Assembly: GCA_034670405.1 (NCBI GenBank)
Contig: JAXDDX010000220.1
Span: 499,501 to 563,500, forward strand
DNA length: 64,000 nt
From: Hoplostethus atlanticus
Lineage: Eukaryota; Chordata; Actinopteri; Trachichthyiformes; Trachichthyidae
Direction of reading: 5' to 3'
In this document: positions 28,040-47,930 of the stretch, piece by piece
Layout of the letters: the number at the start of each line of letters is the position of its first letter
Numbering within the stretch: the stretch's first letter is position 1
Program-made: the position numbers and the translations under genes
The notes under the pieces: generated by a model
Database searches by the model: none
What the model was told of the DNA's origin: nothing
What the model saw: the letters and a program-made list of their open reading frames with translations, nothing else

Positions 28040-30700
28040 GCACAAAATATAATATTTTTATTAAAGTTAATTAAAATATGCTTTCAAATACAACATATCT
28101 TTGAGGCAATAGAATACTGCATTTGTTTCCATTACCTTTTTCATCATACACGTTATCAAAAATTATTTGTCAGAAAGCTTTCAAGAACCTACACTGTAAC
28201 ATGTTGGTGAACAGAACTCCAGACATACATCACGTACGTGTTTTAACTATGCAGCATGTCAATACAACATGTAACAGAAAAAGGACAAGCAACAAAGGCA
28301 GTTCCAAACAATGCACAGCTGCTAAGGCAGTCCAAACATTTGAAGAATGCGGGGTGTTTGTTTGACAAAAAAGGCTGGAAAATTGTGGAAACTGAGCAAG
28401 GCTGAGTATTTGTACAGGTTTTTCTTCCAGTATAGAGGCCAGTGTATGTTAACTGCAAAGAGGATGGTATGTTATCAGATGAGATGTTTTCAAATTAACT
28501 TATTCTATATAGTCAGTCTATAGTTTTATAGATGTTTTTTTATAGATGTGTATTATTTCTCCCAAGAGATGCAGCTGGTTACCCAGAGACCTAAATCAAT
28601 GAATTCCATGAATCCAATATTCCATCATTTTCTGTAGCCACTGACAATCACTGACAGTGTAAGGAATGGAATGACCTTTTTCACAAAGATCAAACCAAAC
28701 TATATGGATGAACCATTCAACCAAAAGGTACACTTCAAAGTACAGCTCTGCCTGTTGCAAACGTCCAAGAAACTATTTGCCTTTTACTTAATCAGACCTA
28801 AATTACACAGAACCAAAGTTACAAAGTAACCAAAATCCCACAAAGAGGGAAAAGATTTGAAGATGTACAATTATCAATAAATCAAACTTTGTGCACCGTG
28901 GTAAACATATCGTCTCCCATTGCATAAATTAGGCACACAAATAATAAATGCATAGACCTATACAGATGTCAAGTAATGGCTGCATTTTAAAAAAAAGATT
29001 GTAACAAAAACATAAAGTAAGATTGGGAAATGATGACGTCTTCCAAATATACAAAAGAAATTGCTAATTGTATTACTCAGACTTAGAATTGAGAAGCTGA
29101 GGATGACAAAGCTAACCATTACCCTCCAGCATTAATTGCACCATTCAGCCTGCTTGTGCTGCTAGCTCTTTACAGTAATATCAAGTGTGGTAAAGTAGTA
29201 GTAACAATAATAACAATAAACTGAATGGTATTTAGTCCCTCAGCTACACTGATTAACATGAATGCAAGTCGGTATTCTAATACTCTCATTTGTCCTGCAA
29301 CATGTATCATGCCAGTGTGCACATGATGCAAAGGGAGCTATGCCTTAATGGGACAGACTACAGACACTTTCTCTTTCATTACAGCTGAAAGGGCTTCATT
29401 CTACACTAAAACACTCCCTCTGAACTAATGACATCACTTCCTGTCTAGAGTCTAGACAACGATGAAGTAAGTGCAGTATTCAGGGTGGATCTAAACACAA
29501 CTAGGCTTTTTCTCCTGATATGATAATATAGATCCCTGTCCACTAATCAGGAAAGAAGAATAAGTCAAGAAACTAGATCTATTGGGGTTAAGCATACTGC
29601 ATTACACCTCTTACAACTTATAATGGAGGTTTAGGTCATCTTACCTAATATATCTCTTTTCTCTACAAAACTTTTGTAATTGACAAAACAATGAGCCATA
29701 TAAATATATAAGTAATGAAAATAATTAAGTGAGGTATTTGGATTTCATGCAATCATTTTATAAAGAAAATAATAATTAATAAGATTTAACCTTTGGTCTT
29801 CTTGATAGCACTCAACACACATTCATCGTGACTACACATGGAGAGAATACTCTTGCGCTGTTGTGATGGTGACCCCCCCACCACCCCCCACCCCCAGAGC
29901 ACAATGAAATGCTTGTAACCATGGAGACTAAAAAAGGTACAACGTACAGGAGATCAGAACGACTGCCAAGTAATTAGTCACTAGGTAATGAGGTGTCGCT
30001 CAGGCAGTTCTCTCATTGATGGGGGGACAGGGAGCTCACCTACTAATAAAAGACGTCAGGTGTGACAGGCTCACCTCTCCCTGCCTCACCCAGATGTGCA
30101 CACTCCACTTTCCACCTCCCTGCAGGGTAAGAACACACCATCTTGGTCTGTCACAATTGTCAGAGAACTTGTGAGACTAACGAATCCATCATTCTTACAG
30201 ACACACATGCGCACGCACATGCGCACGCACGCGCTGGGGTGGGGTATCAGGACTGCACTAACTAACACATTCTGACTGGAAGACAATGAATGTCACAATT
30301 TTGAAAAAATGAGGAACGTAAACAATAGACCAACAACTGTTAAGCCGCCATGCGTTGAGCCAGCCGAGACATGGAGGTACTGTAGACAGTCCACCAGTCC
30401 ACATCCTCCTTAGTCTAACAGTGCATCCATTCCTACTGCTCTTCTTTTAGGACTCAGGCTGGCAGGCTGTGGCAAATCTCACTAACATTGTGCAGGCTCT
30501 GCTGTGTACTTATTGTGGTACTGCCTCAACCAGACCAATCAAAGTGGCCCAGATATTGTATGTGGGTTTCATCAATATGACAGTTTCCATCCTATGGCTA
30601 GTACTCTGATGTGGGTATTGTGGTTGCTGCTTGTTGCCCAAGGTCACATCTCCCTTGAGCATAGCATTCTGGTCCCTCTGTATGGTCCCTGGACTTTGAT
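28040..30700 (-). other. slc17a9: slc17a9 downstream flank and probable 3' UTR
   Basis: AT-rich sequence without coding content, downstream of the slc17a9 stop on the - strand. TTTATT at about 28053-28058 is an AATAAA on the - strand, but a 2.6-kb 3' UTR would be long and I cannot decide the real end. A C-rich stretch at 29873-29896 is G-rich on the transcribed strand. An imperfect RFX site is at 29914-29927. Confidence 0.35.
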
Positions 30701-30703
30701 GAT

Positions 30704-33498
30704 TTAGATGTGGATGTTGTGGTAGCGGGCCTTGATCGAGTCAATATCCACCCGGCGGGCCTCAGCAAAGGCCAGGAAGATGCAGAGGCCCAGCAGGTTA
30801 ACCGTGGTGATGAGGGCAAACACAAACGTCCATGAGCCTGTGGACTCAATCAGATACCCCGAGAAATACACCATCAGGACCCCTGCACAACAACACACAT
30901 ACACACACACCGTTAGCCTGAAAAGCACAGTATCAGAAAACGGGGTGACAGTGAAAACAAAAAACACAACATCTATGTGAATATATGTGATCAGCCCAGT
31001 GTTCCCAGATGTAAGTTGCACAAATAACTGCAGAAAAATGTCAAAGCCCTTTCCAAGTCCCCCACAGGACCACTAACTGTCATCTTCCATTCCCTCCATT
31101 ATTCATCTGACACAAACTCCATTATGCTTTCATGATGAAATATGCATGGCACATAGGAGCCAGCTCGACTGACAGGACACACACAGTTTGACTTCAGTGA
31201 AGTGGATGACTGATTTCATTCAATAGATCAAAGCCAAAACAATAATTTAGGAACTGTAAGTTAAAGATTCATCACAGATGTTTGTTCTCATCATTCTCTC
31301 CCTCAAAACACAGACACTCACCTGAGAAAGCACCACATGTATTCATAACGCCTGAAAAGAAGCGCAGACACACAATTCATTAGTAAAATGTAACAGATAA
31401 TTTAGAATTACATTTTTAAATAAGAAAAGGCTCTGTGTATATTGTATTCATGGTAAGTTTCAAAAAGATTCAAAAACATTTGGAAACAGTCTCTTAACCT
31501 ACCAAACAAAGCTCCAGCACAGGACGGGGCTAGGTCTTGAACATTTACAGATACACCGCTGTAAAAGAGAGACATTTGTGTTTCATCAGATAAGGTGCTC
31601 AACTGACTCCCTATCTTTCTGTCCCCTGAACTGCCTCACAGTAAAACCAATAACCGGACCGACAAATCGCAGCCATAAAAAATTAAATACAACTGAACAA
31701 AGGCAAAAGGAAATAAATATGTCTCCAGGACAATTGATCTTTGTTTATACCCTATTCCCAGCCTGACTATTATTGACTGTATCTTTCTTGTTCCTTGCAT
31801 ATTATGTAGTTTTCCAGCCTGGAACAGAGATCATTTAGGAAGGAGGATCATTAAAATATATTGCTACTGTTGTCATGGAGGGACCCACAAAGTGCAAATT
31901 GAGAACACTAATTTTTGTCCTGACTCAGGGGCTTTTCTTGGGGTTGAAAATGAGATATTGACCTTGACCAACTGTGTTCTTTTTATGAGAAATGCACTGT
32001 ATCAGTGAATGAGATATGGATTCAACTAGAACTATTGCATCTGTAACAGTTACAGGTCAGGGTTGAAAGCTAAAAAAATCCTTGCATTTGAACTGAATCC
32101 TTGCATATGATATACTGCAGGTGCTGTATTCTGTTCAACTGGTCTACGGGCCAAAGGTGGCGCCTGTGCTTGCTATTTTACTATTGTGAGGACAGGGGGG
32201 GTACCAGTACCTGTGGCTGAAGGTGGTGAGGCCCATGGTGGCAGACACAAATGCTACAGCCCACGGGAAAGTGTTGGTGCCACACAGAAGTAGGGTAAAC
32301 ACACTGGCCACACCCATGGAGAAAAACTGACCAGGAATGGGATGGACACACACAAACACATACATCAAGATCTTATGGAATTCATTAGGTGTAAGTGTGG
32401 CAGGAAAGAGGACAGCGGATGGAGAAAAAAATCATCCACAATGAAATCGAACAGATAACATTTATGCATGTGAATTATAAGACAAACAAAATCTGCACAG
32501 AAGAGTTTTCTATACCTGCATGAACTTCCTCACAGAGGCTGTATCAAAACCTGTCGGGACCAAGAGAGAAATGAGGACGAGCAATGACACAATAGCTCTG
32601 TTATCAATAATTAACTTCCATATCTATTCCTCAATTGTCCACAAGGGGTGAGAAGTGAAGTTTATCTGCTCTACCTTGACTGATGAGGTGGTCAGACAGA
32701 CAGCCACTGAAGAGGGAAGAGGGAATGGCCACCAACCAAGGAATGACATTGAACACCCAACCCTGGAGGGAAAACACACATCAGCCACATGTTAGGTCTG
32801 CTTAGACTGTTTTTTTGTTTGTTTTATTAAAAGGCCAGTTCTTTAAGCTACTCGTGCCTGTTATTTCAATCCCTCCAGTCTTGAGGTCAAATGTGAGGTG
32901 AGGGGTGAAGGTGTGAGGAAGGGGGCATGATTACCTTGGCGTCGGGGAAAGTGTCCTTGAAGAAAGTTGGCAGCCATGACAAAAGAGTGAAGAAGGTGCT
33001 CGCTGTGCAAAGGTGTGTAATGATCACAGCACTGGTCAGGCAATAAAGAGAGAAACAGAAAAACTGTAAAACTGCATCAATAAAAGTTGCTTAGTGTTAT
33101 TGCCAAAGACTGTGTCCCATTTCTTTGGGCCTTTTGCTTTGACTGGAGCTCAAGTCAGTGCTACCAGATCTGTGTACATGACAGCTGAGTCTAGTAGTGT
33201 TTTCTTTCATATCGGTGTTAAAGCAAGTAGTATCTGTTGTTTTTTTTTCCAGGTGAGGCTCAGCTATATCAAGAAATTAAACCACAGAGGTGTTCCCTGT
33301 CATTGAAAATAGGGCGGATCAGTTGATTGGCCATTAGCTTGCAGTATATAAATAACCAGGCCATAGGGACGGACTGGGAGGAACTGGAAGAGCTCAATAT
33401 TTGAAACGCTAACACATAGCTAACCAGAGACCAGGAGTCTGGAACAGATAAAAGCAGGATCTACACACACACACAACACCACACCACACCACACCACA

Positions 33499-33537
<39 letters not shown>

Positions 33538-36500
33538 TTTATCTCACCAGACTGCAGGTTGTTTCAAGAGCCGTAGCCAGTGTCTCATGGACAGTTTGGA
33601 TTGGGACCCACCACTTCCCAGGGACTCCAGAGTGATGATAGGGCCTGCAAACACAGATGGACATGAGCAGGAGCATACAAGAGGGAAATTCAATTGAAAA
33701 ATACAAATAATGAGCAACCACAACAAGTCTCCCTTACCTTCTCCTTTGAGAAGATACTTCCACATGCAGTATGCCCACAGGACTGAGAGAACACCAGACA
33801 CATAGAACACACTCTCCCACCCATACAGGTCCAACATGAGGGAACCAGCCCCTCCAATCACCAGGGTGCTGCAAAAAAAGGCACACGTATATAGATGGTA
33901 TCATAATGATCAAGTGCCTTTAAACACAGACCTAGGATGAACTTTACTCTAGTTCTAACTAAACCTGCAAGGGGAATTCAGCAAACATTAATCATAGACT
34001 AGTCGAGACTAGTCAAGTTGCAGTTCATCTGCATGTTTCTGCTACATTCATCAAGCAGCGGTGGACCCTACTGCAGAAAACCTGTCCCTACTGCTACAAC
34101 AATGTCAAGATCAAATACATCATCTGACCATTTGAATACCCATATCAGCATTGCATCTTTGAGTCCTACTGTGGAAAGTAGCTAAAAAGAGGATTTGTTG
34201 CCTGACTCACCCCAGGTAGGAGCCACTACCCACGGTGCTCATGAGGAAGCCTCTCTCACTTTCCACCACCTTTTGAGAGCACAGACTTGCCAGAGATGGA
34301 TAGTGAACCCCTAAAAAGAGAAATCAGGTCAAAAACAGGATTAGTCAAAAGACTTAAAGGTGGATTAAGAAAGACTTTTACTGCCTCATAGCACAAAATG
34401 ACCACAATATATCTGCAGGGAGTTGATAGGGTTGTTGATCAATACCAGTGTCTCAATGTTTACTTCACCAGGTGCTGAGAATTCTTGTTCTAAACTCACT
34501 TTCCTACCAGTCCTACCTGTTTTGAAACAAAAACTCCCCATTGGAATTTTAAAACACCTCTAATCCCCCGACCGACTCATACTCGTATAGAGGACGGCTA
34601 CAGGCGAGCGACCAGCCTTGCAAGACATTTCAGCTATGAAGGCTAATAAGCCTTGTTCTCAAGCCAAAAAGCAAATGACAAAGCAGTAAGTAGTATTATT
34701 ATAATAGTTTGCATTGCAATATATTTCCTCTTCACTAGACATTTCTGTTCGATCCCTGCTCTAATTAGCTAGCTTACTTGTCTCTATTGTGAAAATGTGA
34801 GGACATACATTACTTAATGCCCCTTTAAAGGAAACACACAGCACCATATTTGTTTCAGCCCTGGGGTACAAAAAGGCCAGTGATGACACAAACAAACTGT
34901 ACTTTAACCCAAAGAGACACAGCTGTAGGCTATGGATAAAAGCAATGGCAATCTGGCAGGTCCAGGTCTGAGCAGAGATCAAAGTATGAAATGGACTAAT
35001 GTGCCAATTGTATTCATTGACTCCTGTAGCCTTTGTTGTCTTTCCCGTGAATGACTTCAAATAAAATCAATTTTATTTCTAAGCACTTAACAAAACAGGT
35101 TCATCACAAAGTGCTTTGCAGAGCAACAAGGGACACAAATATAATTAAAACAAGAGAGAAACAAGACAAACGCAGCTGTAGAGTAGGACAGATCTTGTGT
35201 GTGTTTGTTTACGGGTGTGTATGCATGTGTACGTGCATATGGGCACACATGTATAGTGAGTATGGATATGAGAGAGATAGGGCAGCTAATAGCAGATAAA
35301 GCCAAACATAGCAAAGGGGGGGCATAGGGGGCCCTCCAGCAGGGAAGGAATACAGGATGGTGGTTTGTTAGGTAAGTTGAGGTAGGGTTTGAAGACTAGA
35401 TTTAAAGATAGTAGCAGTGTGTGATTCCTTGACATGGGCAGGAAGCTTGTTTCAAAAAGAGGGAGCACTGTAGAAGGCTCTGCTACCGGCTGACTTTATG
35501 TGAATACATCTAGAAAAAGTCCAGCTTCCTGTGAGTAGAGGGTTCAGGTAAATGTGTAGGGATTAAGTAGCTCTGAGATGTATTGAGAGCAAAGTGAGAA
35601 GTAGGATTTTGTATTCAATTCCAGAGTTACTGGGAGCCACTGAAGAGAGACTAAGACCGGGGTGATGTGATCATGTTTCCTGGCACGTGTGAGTATTCTA
35701 GCAGCACAGTTCAGAATAAGCGTGGAGTTGGGACAGACGGAGAGTAGCGCATTGCAGTAAAACATTCTAGATTAAACCAAAGGCATGGATCCATTTTTCA
35801 AGATGTGGAAATACCTGAGGTGAACACATATTTCACCATCTCACCTTGTAGCAAGCCCATGAGGAAGCGAGCCAGCGTCATGGAGAAGATTGGCTGGGAA
35901 CAGAAGTGGGCTAGGACTGGGGTAAAGGCTGTCATAGCTCCCCAGGCCGCTGCAGACAGCAGGAGGACTTTCTCACCGCCCACCCTGTGGACAGAGAAGA
36001 CAGCCAGTCTCCATTAGCTCATTCTTTTTTGACTTTAGGCTCTCTAAAGATTACATCACCATACTGCAAGTTGTGAGAGGTGGCAGAACTTTAAACTCTT
36101 GGATGACTTGTTAGACTAGTTAAAATGGGACATGGGATTCTGTCAACAATATTCTCTTTGGGAAGGAGTTTGGTGAACAAATGAGATGTCCACCATTTTG
36201 AAAAAGTGGCACCTTTTACAAAATGATTGGCAGCATAAACATAAGACATATCATGGATGTTTTTTTAGCATCTTTAGGACTGAATTATTTGTATTTTTGA
36301 AATATTGCTAAATTAACTTTGGGTAACAATTTTGGAAGGAGTAAAACCCTTCAAATATAAACAGCTATCTATTCGAGACACTTTTTGAGGAATAACACAC
36401 ACAAGGAACATATGTAAATATAAATCAAATATCTAGCCTTTATTACTACTTCATGTTTTGCATGAACCATCAGGCAGAGTAAAGAAAACCTTCTCTGTGA

Positions 36501-39586: not shown

Positions 39587-40772
<1,186 letters not shown>

Positions 40773-41167
40773 TATGATATATCCTAAAGGTATAGAATGT
40801 TAGAAATATGTTGCCAAAAAGATTACACATACACAGACTGGATCTTCTATATGTTAGAGTAACTGAATAATGGACTTCTGGTAAATATTATTTTCCCAAA
40901 GTTGATATAGCGATTGTGGAAGTGAACTCTTCAATTTGATACCAACACGACACCGGAAATCCACAGATACAATTTGGGCCTTCGATGAAAACACAACATT
41001 GAAGCCTGACTACCGTCAACACTAACCAAAACAAAGCCATTTTGTGCCCTTATGTGCATTTATATCGAATACAAATGTCAAAGCAGTGGACAATTGTATT
41101 TTATAGTCTTCTATTGATATGTCTCAACAATTATATGCAAATAACATGGTTATTTTATTTACAATAC

Positions 41168-41330
41168 CTGAAAATGATGCCGCTACTCCCCGGCAGTAGC
41201 TAGCGAGCTAGCAGAGAGGTCGCACGGAAAACTCGCGGTATGTCCAAATAACCAAATGGCATTTCAGTGCTGCGTCCGTGATTGGTTAAAACTGTCATGA
41301 CGTTAAAGCTGTCTCAGAATCCGGAAGTAA
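41168..41330 (-). promoter_or_regulatory. gid8: gid8 non-coding first exon and promoter
   Basis: On the - strand, a 5' UTR exon ends at 41168 with a GTATTG donor at 41167-41162. The promoter lies at about 41210-41330 and contains an inverted CCAAT box (attgg, 41281-41285). A MITE begins at 41330, so the promoter is bounded by transposon DNA. Confidence 0.5.
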
Positions 41331-41558
41331 TGGTGCATTCGATTGTACTCGGAACTCGGAAGAAAACGCTACGAGATAGAAGTCTTTACTAGCGTGTGGT
41401 TTAACATTAACATAACATTAAGTTCACTGATATGCGCCCTTTCTCTTCGCTAATGGCACTGTAGTAGTTGATGTAGGTCCTCTTTAGATGCTTGTAAAAT
41501 TCTGAGACTTTCCATACAGTCGGGAATACCGACTTCCGAGGACAATCGAATGCACCAT
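41330..41558. mobile_element. MITE copy 1, 229 bp, TA target duplication
   Basis: Ends are inverted repeats. The left end starts ATGGTGCATTCGATTGT, and the right end is its reverse complement for 17 bases and, with a few mismatches, for about 30. Both ends are flanked by TA (41328-41329 and 41559-41560). The interior matches the right part of the longer copy at 43757-44135 and lacks roughly 250 bases of it, so this is an internally deleted derivative. It abuts the gid8 promoter. The superfamily is uncertain; a TA duplication fits several DNA-transposon groups. Confidence 0.75.
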
Positions 41559-41598
41559 TACCCATGGAGGGCAAGTACCCCCCTTTTTGTGTTTTCTC

Positions 41599-41606
41599 GT
41601 TTGGTG
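41599..41606. repeat. Left 8-bp target-site duplication
   Basis: GTTTGGTG directly before the foldback element, identical to 42853-42860. Confidence 0.85.
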
Positions 41607-42852
41607 CATAGACATATATACATAGACGCCGCATTGGCCTGTGGATCGTACTTAAACGTCGCTGCCATATTGGTCCGGGCAAGACTGGCCTGTAAACAAA
41701 TACAAGTAAACGGGGAGCTGCGTTTTTTCTGGATGAAAAGCACTATAAGGTTTACATTTCTCAACCGATTTCAATGAGTCCTTTTTTATATTCAAGGGTT
41801 TATGATCTACGTGGGGTAGAAAAAAAAGTTTTGTCTCCAGTTACTTAGTTAGGCTATAATCGCTGCTAGACGCTCAAGAGAGTGTCAACGTTAGGCTCAC
41901 ATGAACTGAATTACTTACGTGGTGGAAAATAATTCATTGTCATAAGGCATTGTAAAAACTCAGGTTTGTCAAGCATGGATTTGGCTTATTTTCCTTGGTT
42001 AATACTTGTGGAGACGTCCATATATAATATAAATTAATGTACATGAAATGTGCAGAAAGTTCTTTTTCTGTCCATGTCCCCATCATTTTAGCTTTTGTTG
42101 TGCTCCAGGTCAGAACACAGCTCATTCACTTTGAAATACTGGGGGGGCGGGGGGCGGGGACATCTAAATAGCGCATTTTTAAGTACTAATAATTGACCAT
42201 CATTGAGAAAAATGGAACAAAATCGGCAAATACAAATTATAGTGAGACACTGGCAGTCAGTCTGCTTTCTATATTTTTATAGCAGTGAAAGGATACAGAT
42301 ATACTCCAAGACAGACAATTACAGACAAAGACTATTATGAGATAAGATACGCCTTTATTGATCCCCAGAGGACAAATAAAGAGGGAAAATTCAAATGGCC
42401 TATAATCGAGATTTTCATTTATATTTATATATCTATATTTCTCCAAACCGATTTTTATGACAAGCTACTCGTTTCGGCTAAGCGGCTGATATTATAAATC
42501 TGACTGTAGTTAGCTGGCTAGCTAACTTTTCTCACACTTTGAAGGTTTCCCAAAGAGAAAGAGTTGATACACAGTGATTATAGCCTAACGATTGAGATTC
42601 TAAGTAACTGGAGACAAAACTTTTTTTCCCTACTCCACGTAGATCATAAACCCTTGAATATAAAAACGGCTCATTGAAATCGGTTGAGAAATGTAAACGT
42701 TATAGTGCTTTTCATCCAGAAAAACTGCAGCTCCCCGTTTACTTGTATTTGTTTACAGGCCAGTCTTGCCTGGACCAATATGGCGGCGACGTTTACGTAT
42801 CGTAGCAATGGGCAGAAGCAGTCAATGTGGCGTCTATGTATATATGTCTATG
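41607..42852. mobile_element. 1,246-bp foldback DNA transposon with long terminal inverted repeats
   Basis: The first and last about 260 bases are inverted repeats of each other, with small differences and one 11-base indel. Termini are CATAGACATATATACATAG at the left and its reverse complement at the right. A perfect 8-bp duplication, GTTTGGTG, flanks both sides (41599-41606, 42853-42860). There is no transposase in the 700-base centre, so it is non-autonomous. Eight-base duplications are made by hAT and P-type transposases. The CAT...ATG ends are not the usual hAT pattern, so a P-like origin is my tentative inference. The centre carries a G-rich run (42141-42160) and a fragment of another repeat (42341-42392). 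Confidence 0.85.
42341..42392. repeat. Repeat fragment (cctttattgatcccc type)
   Basis: gataagatacgcctttattg followed by atccccag and gggaaaattc is a dispersed sequence often seen in teleost genomes. It lies inside the foldback element and is therefore nested. Confidence 0.5.
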
Positions 42853-42860
42853 GTTTGGTG
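42853..42860. repeat. Right 8-bp target-site duplication
   Basis: GTTTGGTG directly after the foldback element, identical to 41599-41606. Confidence 0.85.
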
Positions 42861-42993
42861 GGCACAGAACTTCCTGTTATAAACTACAATGAGGTCAGAC
42901 ATAGCTACACAAAACGCTGCTAACACCGTCGAGCTATCCTCACACTACCTATATATATATATATATAACTAATATATTAACCTTGTATCTAAA

Positions 42994-45900
42994 ATGGGTT
43001 CGGGGACACATTGTGCGGTGCGTGGCTGTCCTAATACACGGAAACGCTTGAATGAGTGGTTGGAAAGAGAGTGTTTTGAGCATCGGCCCGCCACAAAACG
43101 GCAATGTCCCTGCACTCCACTTTTTTCGTTTCACAAAAGACCAAGGAGAGATTTGGAATCGCAGATGTGGCTGAAGGCTTTAAATTTGAAGAAACCACCG
43201 AGAGACGTCTTCGTTTGTTCTCATCACTTCCTTGACAAGAAGCCAACCCCAGCAAACCCTTACCCTGAGCTGTGGTTGGGATTGGGATATGACCGACCTC
43301 CACAGAGAAAGAGGCGAAAGCTGGAGAGGAGCACTTGCTGCTACACTGAGCCTGCATCGGAAGGTAAGCTTTGCTAGCTGGCTAGTAACGTTACTAGTTA
43401 CCTTGTTAGCTACGATATAGCTGATTGATAATAAGTCATGTTTGTTTTATGGGTTCTGCTTTGTAACGTTGGCTGGTTTAACGTTAGTTGCCTAGACAGT
43501 AACGTTAGCGTCCATACACTGGCTAGACCGTAGTACAGCCTATGGTAAGGAAGTAATGTTGATGTTAGCTTGTATAATTTTGCCACATTTAACGTTATCT
43601 AACGTTACTACAAAATACAGGTAACTAACGTTAGCCCAAGCAAGCCAGTAAGCTTTGTCAGTCTCTTTGATACAACTTTAATGATCATAACTATCTAAAT
43701 GGCCATACCTTACATTACTTACCCTTCTTGTTCATGGACCATTTAAAAGGTAGATTATGGTGCATTCCAATACTCGGAACTCGGAAAAAAACCGACCTCC
43801 GACACGGAAAAGTGCAATAGAACAGTCATTCAAGTCGGAATTCCCAGTCAGAAACTCGGGCTAGATCCAACTGGCCCGAGTTCGCCGATATAAACACACC
43901 TGACGTCACAACAATACACCGCGAACAGTCAATTTCACTTCATATGTCGTTTTAGTTATGAAAACAGGTTGAAACAACTTTGTAGTTTACGTTTGTAACG
44001 TAATTCGGTTGATTTGAGCTCAACGTTACGAGAAAGAAGTCTTTGCTAGCGTGCGGTACTAGCCTACCAACGTTCACGTTCACGATATGCGCCGATTCTC
44101 TTCACTAATGGCGCTGTAGTAGTCGATGATCCTTCGTGGGAGCACCTATGTGTGTAGTCAACGCTTTGCCCCACAACATTAAAACCACTGACAGGTGAAG
44201 TGAATAACATCGATTATCTTGTGACAATGACACCTGTCAAGGGGTGGGATCGATTGGGAAGCAAGTGAACAGTCAGTTCTTGAAGTTGATGTGTTGGAAC
44301 CAGGAAAAATGGGCAAACTTAAGGATCTGAGCAACTTTTACTAGGGCCAAATTGTGATGGCTAGATGACTGGGTCAGAGCATCTCCAAAACGGCAGGTCT
44401 TGTGGGGTGTTCCCGGTATGCAGTGGTTAGTACCTACCAAAAGTGGTCCAAGGAAGGACAACCAGTGAACCGGCGACAGTCATGGGTGCCCAAGGCTCAT
44501 TGATGCGCTTGGGGAGCGAAGGCTAGCCCATCTGGTCTGATCCCACAGAAGAGCTACTGTAGCACAAATTGCTGAAAACGTTAACGCTGGCTATGATAGA
44601 AAGGTGTCAGAACACAGTGCATCGCAGCTTGCTGTGTATGGGGCTGCGGAGCCACAGACCGGTCACAGTGCCCATGCTGACCCCTGTCCACTGCCAAAAG
44701 CGCCCACAATGGGCACGTGAGCGTCAGAATTGAGCAATGGAAGACAGTGGCCTGGTCTGACGAATCACGTTTTCTTTTACATCATGTGGATGGCCGGGTG
44801 CGTGTGCGTCGTTTACCTGGGGAAGTGATGGCACCAGGATGCACTATGTGAAGAAAGGCAAGCTGGCGGAGGCAGTGTGATGCTCTGGGCAATGTTCTGC
44901 TGGGAAACCTTGGGTCCTGACATTCATGTGGATGTTACTTTGACACGTACCACCTACCTAAACATTGTTGCAGACCAAGTACACCCCTTCATGGCGACGG
45001 TATTCCCTGATGGCAGTGGCCTCTTTCAGCAGGATAATGCACACTGCAAAAACTGTTCAGGAATGGTTTGAGGAACATGACAAAGAGTTCAAGGTGTTGA
45101 CTTGGCCTCCAAATCCCCCAGATCTAAATCCGATCGAGCATCTGTGGGATGTGCTGGAAAAACAAGTCTGATCCATGGAGGCCCCACCTCGCAACTTAAA
45201 GGATCTGCTGCTAATGTCTTGGTGCCAGATACTACAGGACACCTTCAGGGGTCTTGTGGAGTCCATGCCTCGACAGGTCAGAGCTGTTTTGGCGGCACAA
45301 GGGGGACCTACACAATATTAGGCACGTGGTTTTAATGTTATGGCTGATCAGTGTATACACATCAACCAGTGGACGAATCCGGATTGAGTTTTTTTGCATT
45401 TGCTTTTTAACACAGCTTGTATTAATCCATACAAAAAAATGAAAGCATAATAAATTGTCCTGTTTCCATATAAAGCATTTGTGATGTTATGTTACATTTT
45501 GTGATATTTTTGGGGACTGAAAAATGATTACCAAAAATGTATCATGACAATCAAGTGTATCAACATATTTCACACCTTTAGGAAGAGGCTCACAAACTCG
45601 GGAGTCAGTTTACCAGCGAGCAAGGAAGCGTCTTAGTGCTGCTGTCCTGGATGACTCTCAGGAGATGCCTGTCCCAGGGCACAGCACAGAGGAGGCATTG
45701 CCTGCAGGTGCAGTGGCAAAAGATCATGACTATGCCTGCCATCCTTCTCCTGGTTAGTATTACAAAAAAGAGTAACAGCTTATTCTGTCTTGCAGAGAAA
45801 ATATATGGCAGTGAATTACATTGTAACTATCTTGTAGTAGTATTCAGAGAAGCTGGACTTGCTGTGAAAAGACTTTGTTTCGCTGCTCATCCAAGAAGCT

Positions 45901-47199
45901 TCTTCAGTTCTACTGACTGGTGGGGATGTCTCTCTGAGGTGACACACTTAAGAGGTTAAAAATGTCAGACATCCCCACCAGTCAGTAGAACTGAAGAAGC
46001 TTCTTGGATGAGGACATTACATTGTAAACTTAATTTAATTGTATTAGTCTTCACCTCATAAGAGAAGAATTACTGTCAAACTCACCAACAAACAACATCC
46101 AGTAAAGAAGTGAAAATGGATAGATGGATGAGTGATGTATATCAATGTGTATGCTCTTTCTTCCCCTTAAGGTAAACCGGACGGTGCCACTCTGAGAATT
46201 CAAGAGTTGGAGCTGCAAGTTTTGTCACTAGAAACTGAAATCCAGCAGCTGACAGTTAAGAAGCAGCAGCCACTGATTTTCAAGTTTTGTATCACAGATG
46301 AGGACTTTCGTTACTACACAAGATTCAGCTCAAAAGAGGTCTTCACTGTGTTTTGGGAGTCAGTTAACCCCTCTGCTTCAAGGCTTGTGTACTGGTCCAA
46401 GGCACAGCAAACGGCACAAGAGACACCCAGCCCTCAGCGAAAACGTCCACTCATTGATGAATTCTTCATGTTTCTCTGTCGCATTGCAGCTGGGCTTCAG
46501 GAGAAAACCTTGTCATCCATCTTTGAGGTCAGCTTGTCTACAGTTAGTCGCACCATCTTAACGTGGACTACCTACCTTTACCAGGTTCTTGGCTCGCTAC
46601 CATTGTGGATGACAAGAGAGCAAGTGCAGGCCACAATGCCTGACAAGTTCAAGCTCTACTGCCCTCAGGTGAGAGTGATAATCGACTGCACCGAGATCCG
46701 CTGTGAAACAGCATCCTCCCTCTCACTGCAGTCAGAAACTTTTTCCAACTATAAAAATCACACCACCTTTAAAGGTCTGATTGGCATCGCTCCATGTGGG
46801 GTTATCACATTTGTATCCAAACTGTACACAGGCTCCATCTCAGATATAGAAATAACTCGGAAATCACAGATCTTACAGTTACTTCAGCCCAGAGACGGAG
46901 TAATGGCCAACACAGGTTTCCTGATCGAGAAGATGCTGTCAGAGGTGGGGGCAACACTCATCATCCCTCCACTAAAGAAATCTACTCAGCTCAGCATGGA
47001 GGACACCCAGAAGACCCAGGCTATTGCCCATCTGAGGATTTTAGTAGAGAGGGCCATACGCAGGGTGAAGGAGTACCATATTTGGGATGGGCTTGTTCCT
47101 CTTTATATGGTAGGTTCAGTCAATCAGCTGTGGGTCATCTGTTGCCTAATGTCAAACTATCAGGGACCTCTTGATATCAAAGGGGACAAACCAGTCTGA
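42994..47199 (+). CDS. THAP-domain DDE transposase gene (IS4EU/ISL2EU-like), three exons
   Basis: Exons 42994-43363, 45582-45752 and 46172-47199 have GT-AG introns and join in frame to 522 residues plus stop. Residues 1-79 are a THAP-type C2CH zinc finger (Cys7, Cys12, Cys75, His78, with Trp59 and Phe79). The Cys12-Cys75 spacing of 62 is longer than in classical THAP domains. Exon 2 is low-complexity. Exon 3 starts with a coiled-coil-like segment (IQELELQVLSLETEIQQLTV) and continues as a DDE_Tnp_4-type catalytic domain. The first Asp is Asp352 (VIIDCTEIRCE) and the Glu is Glu473 (LVERAIRRVKEY). The motif that normally reads MAD-x-GF reads MANTGF, so the second catalytic residue is Asn427. Intron 1 holds a MITE and a dead Tc1 element; intron 2 holds a 46-bp hairpin. 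I found no matching terminal repeats around the gene. It is either a recently inactivated transposon or a host-retained gene. Confidence 0.85.
43387..43632. repeat. Cluster of seven AACGTT palindromes
   Basis: AACGTT occurs near 43387, 43464, 43479, 43501, 43591, 43601 and 43626, mostly as TAACGTTA/G, at the start of intron 1 of the THAP gene. More copies are at about 44024 and 44072. Chance expectation in 250 bases is far below one. Role unknown; it could be repeat-derived. Confidence 0.6.
43757..44135. mobile_element. MITE copy 2, right end missing
   Basis: Starts ATGGTGCATTCCAATACTCG, close to the terminus of the 41330 copy, and its last 110 bases match that copy's interior (from 'acgagaaagaagtctt' to 'gctgtagtagtcgatga'). 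The right terminal repeat is absent because the Tc1 remnant follows directly. It lies in intron 1 of the THAP transposase gene. Confidence 0.7.
44152..45357 (+). pseudogene. Decayed Tc1/mariner element with broken transposase
   Basis: The right terminal repeat is well preserved (ggttttaatgttatggctga, then tcagtgtata, to 45357). Its inverted counterpart at the left survives only as acattaaaaccactga at about 44175, and the outer 20 bases are not recognisable. Between them is a Tc1-type transposase broken by frameshifts and stops. Remaining pieces include WSDES (first Asp), QQDNAHC (second Asp) and PPDLNPIEHLWDVLEKQV (Glu of a DD34E triad), ending at 45171. The element cannot be active. Confidence 0.88.
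45886..46012. repeat. Perfect 46-bp inverted repeat with 35-base loop
   Basis: 45886-45931 is the exact reverse complement of 45967-46012. The arm contains ctcatccaagaagcttcttc, a sequence type frequent in teleost repeats. It lies in intron 2 of the THAP gene and would form a strong hairpin in the transcript. Confidence 0.92.
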
Positions 47200-47930
47200 A
47201 GCCTCCCCTCCCCTTCAAGCCCTGGCTTTTGTTAAAAGGATATATATATATACCTTTTTCAGAATCAAGTGTAACCTATTAATAGAGACATAACAATGAG
47301 TGTTGTTGCTACACAACATTTTTTACATTTCCTTATATCTACAAAGATTAATGGGATATAAATTTAGGATTACAGTAAGTGTATAAGCTTTGAACATTAT
47401 TTTTATTTTTACTTATCACACAGAATCTTTCTCAGTCTTTATTGTCCTCAAACAACCCATTTCTGTTTTTAAAGATATGTACAAAGTTGTCTTTTGGAGT
47501 TTAGCTACACAAAATCATTGACATCAGACTGAGAAACACACTGAGCTACAGTGGAACCTCGTGGGATACTGCAAGTGCAGCAAAACACAACAAAAATAAA
47601 ACTTAACTCTAATCATAATGTTAGGTAATGAGCCTCCTCATTTTTCTTCATTGACCTGTGCCCTCTCACTGTCTTACAATCCAGACTCTAGCTAACAGCA
47701 GTAATGTGGAAAAGTGGTTGCAACAAGAGTTGCAGTCTGTACTACATTACCTCCAACATCAACCCCTGAGCCTGCTGCTTTCTTCTTGACCCCACACACA
47801 CACACACACACCTACACCCGGACCTACTCAGAACGGAAGTTGTCTGACGTCATGTGAAAAGGGCCTATTGGTGGGTTGTAGTAGGACAGGAGACTTTTGT
47901 GACAGTGGTGAGATAGTAGTGAGATCGGTT
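47200..47930. other. Flank between THAP gene and hAT remnant
   Basis: AT-rich, with (TA)n at 47240-47253 and (CA)n at 47793-47811. No coding sequence and no terminal repeat matching the THAP gene's left side were found. Confidence 0.45.

Follow-up and report, generated by a model that had tools for sequence, protein, structure and literature searches.

A three-exon frame in Hoplostethus atlanticus joins exons of two ISL2EU transposon lineages, with asparagine at a catalytic position

Here, we describe a three-exon open reading frame (ORF) in the fish Hoplostethus atlanticus whose exons have two different transposon ancestries. The frame lies on the forward strand of a 64,000-nucleotide window (GCA_034670405.1, contig JAXDDX010000220.1, 499,501-563,500) of a 633-Mb assembly; all position numbers refer to this window. 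Exon 1 encodes a THAP domain of one ISL2EU lineage (family A), while exons 2 and 3 derive from the transposase of another (family B) and carry asparagine in place of the second catalytic aspartate. Exon 3 has no second copy in the assembly. We tentatively favor a reading in which a deletion made a mosaic of the two transposons, disarmed but still coding, whose frame was perhaps retained as a lineage-specific DNA-binding gene.

RESULTS

A THAP-HTH-DDE frame in three exons

ISL2EU transposases, members of the PIF/Harbinger-ISL2EU-Spy (PHIS) superfamily, are reported to carry DDE, HTH, and THAP domains in one ORF (PMC4482050). The three exons described here (42994-43363, 45582-45752, and 46172-47199), when joined at their GT..AG boundaries, give 522 codons and a stop, as an earlier sequence-only reading of this DNA had claimed. 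Pfam searches of the joined exons recovered THAP (27.8 bits), HTH_Tnp_4 (32.8 bits), and DDE_Tnp_4 (126 bits), each above its curated cutoff, and the frame thus has the domain content of an ISL2EU transposase. The THAP domain occupies exon 1, which is in frame with exon 2, and its zinc ligands are presumably C7, C12, C75, and H78. Exon 3 encodes both the HTH_Tnp_4 and DDE_Tnp_4 domains, with D352, N427, and E473 at the positions of the catalytic triad.

Exon 1 and exons 2-3 have different relatives

We aligned 120 listed protein relatives out of 579. P0001 and P0002, from Paramisgurnus and Labeo, share 90-91% identity with exon 3; for exon 2, the identity is 78% with P0001 (58 of 58 residues, ungapped) and 76% with P0002. 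The THAP exon of these two proteins, however, differs from exon 1. Among the 120 relatives, exon 1 is near only P0045 (LOC133419145 of Cololabis saira; 64%), all others reaching at most 36% over short stretches. A separate search with residues 1-123 yielded six proteins out of 23 candidates, including P0121 (65%) and P0045 (58%). Four of the six (P0121, P0122, P0125, and P0045) were compared further, and their DDE domains are 34-48% identical to exon 3. Because these exon-wise identities point to different relatives, we assign exon 1 to the A-type THAP domains and exons 2 and 3 to family B.

Intron 1 retains a relic of the THAP exon that family B itself once had. The relic begins at 44129-44176 (forward strand) as ILRGSTYVCSQRFAPQ, which matches P0001 at 14 of 16 residues (E = 5e-6 in a 9-kb search). 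It is then interrupted by a Tc1-like insertion (44171-45351, forward strand), and resumes at 45352-45391 as YTSTSGRIRIE, recognized by translation and by-eye comparison with P0003. The insertion was identified from a DDE_3 match, remnants of terminal inverted repeats (TIRs), and copies elsewhere in the assembly, 39 of which were scored out of 910 candidates (87-93% identity). Its right end adjoins B coding sequence at TA; by our reading of the alignment, its left end seems to have lost its first bases, at a shared CCA. Since the insertion sits in B's THAP exon, family B must be older than the insertion.

On its left, the relic is cut at 44128/44129, exactly where a miniature inverted-repeat transposable element (MITE; 43757-44128, forward strand) ends. 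A sister MITE at 41327-41561 extends beyond the matching point, 41473, by another 88 bases and finishes in an inverted end, and we therefore consider the MITE in intron 1 to be truncated at its 3′ end. The MITE is multicopy in the assembly (39 other copies scored of 1431 candidates), and 11 of the 39 match to the final query base. We presume that 44128/44129 is a deletion junction.

Together, the exon-wise identities and the intronic relic rule out a single element in which exon 1 is native to exons 2 and 3. The sequence-only reading had seen one transposase with insertions in its introns; this view must be replaced, as exon 1 comes from another ISL2EU lineage and intron 1 contains the broken THAP exon of B.

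Two proteins with THAP domains of the exon 1 type deserve mention. In P0045, the first catalytic aspartate appears to be glycine (VGCVE), making it another possibly disarmed THAP-DDE protein. In P0123, from Sparus aurata, several C2H2 zinc fingers in a row come after an exon-1-type THAP domain (51% identity), which suggests that this THAP exon has been reused elsewhere.

Asparagine replaces the second catalytic aspartate

Asn427 is encoded by AAC at 46909-46911, within the motif MANTGF. The other two triad residues are retained: D352 at 46684 (in DCTE) and E473 (in LVERAI). Because of Asn427, the complete DDE triad of an ISL2EU transposase is lacking. Among the aligned relatives, column 427 contains Asp in 109 proteins, Asn in 1, other residues in 9, and a gap in 1; column 352 is Asp in 103 of 120 and column 473 is Glu in 105 of 120. 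We also compared 29 relative loci of this genome; 25 of them (some overlapping) span column 427, with Asp in 23, Ser in 2, and Asn in none. In a structure model of exon 3 (mean predicted local distance difference test 82.5), residue 352 lies in a strand, residue 427 follows one, and residue 473 belongs to a helix, as in DDE folds. Fold comparison of the model contributes little, giving weak matches to DDE or RNase H-like folds only (best Mos1, E = 1.6e-4, TM-score 0.21).

Since Asp dominates column 427 both in proteins and in same-genome loci, the catalytic residue is not some other aspartate, and a misalignment of Asn427 is ruled out. Asn427 thus occupies the place of the second catalytic Asp in an ISL2EU-type THAP/HTH/DDE_Tnp_4 transposase, in agreement with the sequence-only reading. 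Changes private to this protein also lie near the triad: K428T adjoins Asn427, and R467H is close to the catalytic Glu. An Asp-to-Asn change at a near-invariant metal-ligand column would, judging from the family, abolish cleavage, and the loss of activity proposed earlier is therefore well inferred. The codon also fits an origin by CpG decay.

The catalytic exon is single copy, and no element ends were found around it

Exon 3 is single copy in the assembly: of the 61 candidates, each of them scored, the second best reaches only 59% identity. That nearest relative is a piece with a stop, found with identical scores at C295:304-918 and C304:235896-236510; one of the pair lies near a contig start, and the two are possibly assembly duplicates. 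Twenty hand-picked assembly regions contained no copy of the exon 3 family either (best 46% to exon 3). At the DNA level, in a search that skips very common words, 45352-47700 recurs, besides its self-match, only as a 63-base match. These 63 bases, 3′ of exon 3 (47256-47318), occur once more at C1:17147664-17147726 (95%), with no similarity beyond them within the 301 bases fetched (L087). Other full-length copies with Asn, whose presence would count against the earlier interpretation, were sought in the assembly, and none was found.

Nor did we find ends of an A or B element, in the form of TIRs with an AT target duplication, around the gene in the window. The YqaJ nuclease, which ISL2EU elements encode in a second ORF, was not found in the 10 ORFs scanned, three of them between 47865 and 48618, in a scan that was not exhaustive. 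The locus thus combines a single copy with no element ends found, as expected of a domesticated gene.

Exon 1 is the 5′ portion of family A transposons

Upstream of exon 1, alignments of A copies reveal the 5′ leader of family A (42853-42993, forward strand), the left side of which is cut at the edge of a foldback element. In the 19 A copies examined, the match to the window begins at 42853 in 13 and at 42855-42858 in three, and ends at 43168 in 12 and at 43201 in four. Additional left-hand sequence, absent from the window, is common to 13 of the 14 A copies displayed. The right half of an A copy has no window match above chance level.

Searched as protein, exon 1 matches the assembly 44 more times, with some copies counted in two pieces. 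These matches end at residues 56-71 in 22 of the 44, at 89 and 91 in two, and earlier in the rest; the sole full-length A exon 1 in the assembly is therefore the one at this locus. One A copy (L065) is ~890 bases long, and 5 of 10 others align with it over almost the whole of that length. Its ends resemble inverted repeats (AGACAAGTTTTT in L064) flanked by what could be an AT duplication, an assessment made by eye on two copies. An origin of exon 1 as a host gene is ruled out, as it recurs as the 5′ portion of partial transposon copies. Sixteen A copies span the start of exon 1 (3 of the 19 were dropped as partial); just three of these are in frame, one of them without a start codon, and some of the frameshifts in the others are common by descent. 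At 43270-43290, exon 1 reads LWLGLGYDRP where P0122 has LWLGYDRP, and the DNA resembles an in-frame, 6-base tandem duplication.

Frame tests lean toward constraint

The nested Tc1-like copy served as a neutral clock; it was aligned with eight of the other 39 that had been scored, each of them ranking in the top nine. The window copy has 38 private substitutions at 1115 sites and 6 private indels, the highest among nine copies that average 2.2% private substitutions and 3.7 indels. Exons 2 and 3 contain no stop, and exon 3 is ungapped relative to P0002. In neutral simulations that scored any indel as frame-breaking, the probability that exons 2 and 3 would both still be open was 0.0003 at the window rate, 0.0067 at the nine-copy mean, and 0.015 at half the window rate. 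Exon 3 has 8 private amino acid changes at 237 sites invariant in seven near relatives, where 16.8 would be expected at the window rate (P of ≤8 = 0.012) and 8.5 at half that rate (P = 0.52). At 137 columns with ≥95% agreement, it has a single change. Compared with the A-copy consensus, exon 1 differs at 5 of 171 coding sites, and the leader at 17 of 141 (Fisher's exact test, P = 0.003; P = 0.006 without a TA-rich stretch), while A copies as a group show no such contrast.

Several observations weigh against retention of the frame by selection. The probability of an open frame rises to 0.17 if substitutions and indels are set to the lowest counts seen in the nine Tc1-like copies, and the private differences of the window copy may partly precede its insertion. 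At the nine-copy mean rate, 10.9 private changes are expected in exon 3 (P of ≤8 = 0.24). The seven near relatives carry 3 to 15 such changes each, so that exon 3, with 8, is not unusually conserved. Several of the private changes look radical (Y246N, L272R, D427N, K428T, R467H, and S492Y), which would also fit decay. The contrast in exon 1 could stem from A's working life as a transposon, on whichever branch the changes fell, and 3 of the 17 leader differences are at sites where A copies agree only 70-73%. All P values overstate the case, because the locus was chosen for its open frame. Furthermore, no protein with A-type THAP fused to B-type exons was seen among the 120 listed relatives or the six matches to exon 1. 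On balance, the frame tests lean toward constraint without settling it.

Surroundings of the gene

GID8 (found with a human query, and with a CTLH domain) starts at 40772 on the minus strand. Between it and exon 1 lies the foldback element (41607-42852), the arms of which (41607-41865 and 42572-42852) are ~86% alike; pieces of it are also present in L005. Frames at 30700-36000 resemble SLC17A9 and those right of ~51000 a dynein heavy chain. Intron 2 contains an inverted repeat (45886-46012, forward strand) with fully complementary 46-base arms. An Rfam scan of the window gave no match at gathering thresholds. The ratio of observed to expected CpG, in 500-base steps, is 0.70-1.07 for 41000-44499 and 0.06-0.37 over exons 2 and 3. 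Exon 1 thus lies in CpG-rich DNA, perhaps promoter-like sequence.

A bhlhe23 gene is located at 1716-2390. The nearest bhlhe23 is that of Diretmus argenteus, and its 97% identity suggests that close kin of the host may be unannotated. Exon 3, however, is 90-91% like proteins of Paramisgurnus and Labeo, and family B may have been transferred horizontally.

DISCUSSION

The frame resembles known ISL2EU transposons in its THAP, HTH, and DDE_Tnp_4 domains, its teleost relatives, and the flanks of two A copies, which fit an AT target duplication. It is unlike those elements as described (PMC4482050, PMC9179366) in being a single-copy mosaic of two lineages with Asn at the second catalytic Asp, and in lacking detected element ends and, in the ORFs scanned here, YqaJ. 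In P0045, an A-type THAP domain (64% identity with exon 1) is combined with a DDE domain that shares 48% identity with exon 3. The linker is different, however, and the DDE domain only distantly related, and common descent of the two fusions is unsupported.

Host genes derived from transposases include HARBI1, genes of the THAP family, and "transposase capture" fusions, and they are mostly recognized once old. The present frame is similar to such genes in its intact DNA-binding domain, single copy, and probably disabled catalysis; set in the context given by PMC10027918, it differs in that both partners are transposons. None of the titles listed in literature searches concerned a THAP-swapped ISL2EU gene, although this does not establish novelty in print.

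We suggest that an A element, with the MITE in or behind it, lost its 3′ part, and a B element its 5′ part, through a deletion whose junction is 44128/44129. This would have placed exon 1 of A, with its promoter side and THAP domain, upstream of exons 2 and 3 of B. Exon 1 would then splice in frame to exon 2, as the intron phases agree, perhaps because they are common to this transposon group. The leftover THAP exon of B would have become intronic, and it was split by the Tc1-like insertion. The predicted product, with an A-type THAP domain, an HTH, and a DDE domain with Asn, would bind the ends of A-type transposons and not cut them. Its frame may have been kept after the loss of B's THAP exon, serving as a DNA-binding gene that is specific to this lineage and lies upstream of GID8.

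Nearly as likely is that the locus is a neutral relic: deletion-joined pieces of two dead ISL2EU elements, with frames open through chance and recency, joined in frame by luck or by shared intron phase, and with no protein produced or required. The neighborhood has the look of a transposon graveyard: halves of two unrelated elements stand beside a Tc1-like insertion, a MITE cut short, and a foldback element. The private changes in exon 3 fall inside the range of its relatives, and would require little time; the mildest Tc1-like rates give an open frame a probability of 0.17; the site was selected for being open; and the CpG depletion over exons 2 and 3 is as in methylated, inactive DNA. However, at the window or nine-copy mean rate an open frame would be rare under neutrality, and open frames persist in both the A and the B pieces, yet 13 of 16 comparable A copies are out of frame, even if some of their frameshifts are shared.

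It is improbable that the locus was a recently active chimeric transposon, in which an A-type THAP domain and the catalytic exons of B moved together, drove the partial A copies, and died through D427N and the loss of its ends. In other fish, A-type THAP domains do accompany two or more further DDE types (that of P0045, and that of P0121, P0122, and P0125), so that THAP swapping has occurred in the group, and the only full-length A exon 1 in the assembly is at this locus. On the other hand, no second copy of exon 3 was found, the presumed 3′ end is missing, since the right half of an A copy has no window match above chance level, and the B relic and truncated MITE at the junction suggest a local accident.

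Retention of a disarmed mosaic is thus the reading that we prefer, with reservations. The sequence-only reading had offered two alternatives, very recent loss of activity or domestication. This pair stands, along with the loss of catalysis, although the view of a single element does not; the single copy and the Tc1-like clock lean toward retention but are not proof.

It would be bolder, and we consider it unlikely on present evidence, to see here a new host gene made by a deletion-driven swap of DNA-binding exons, with catalysis lost and with a built-in role as candidate repressor of A elements, a role proposed because its THAP domain is the one encoded by the 5′ end of A elements themselves. 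If the frame has indeed been retained by the host, it would be a young host gene in which the scar of the deletion, the THAP exon that was discarded, and an insertion that can be dated are all still in place, with A-type ends as its predicted target. If the locus is instead neutral, it is a warning that unrelated transposon pieces can come together as a three-exon frame that is open and has good splice sites. The association of A-type THAP domains with the DDE domain of P0045, with those of P0121, P0122, and P0125, and with exons 2 and 3 here suggests that THAP exons move between ISL2EU lineages.

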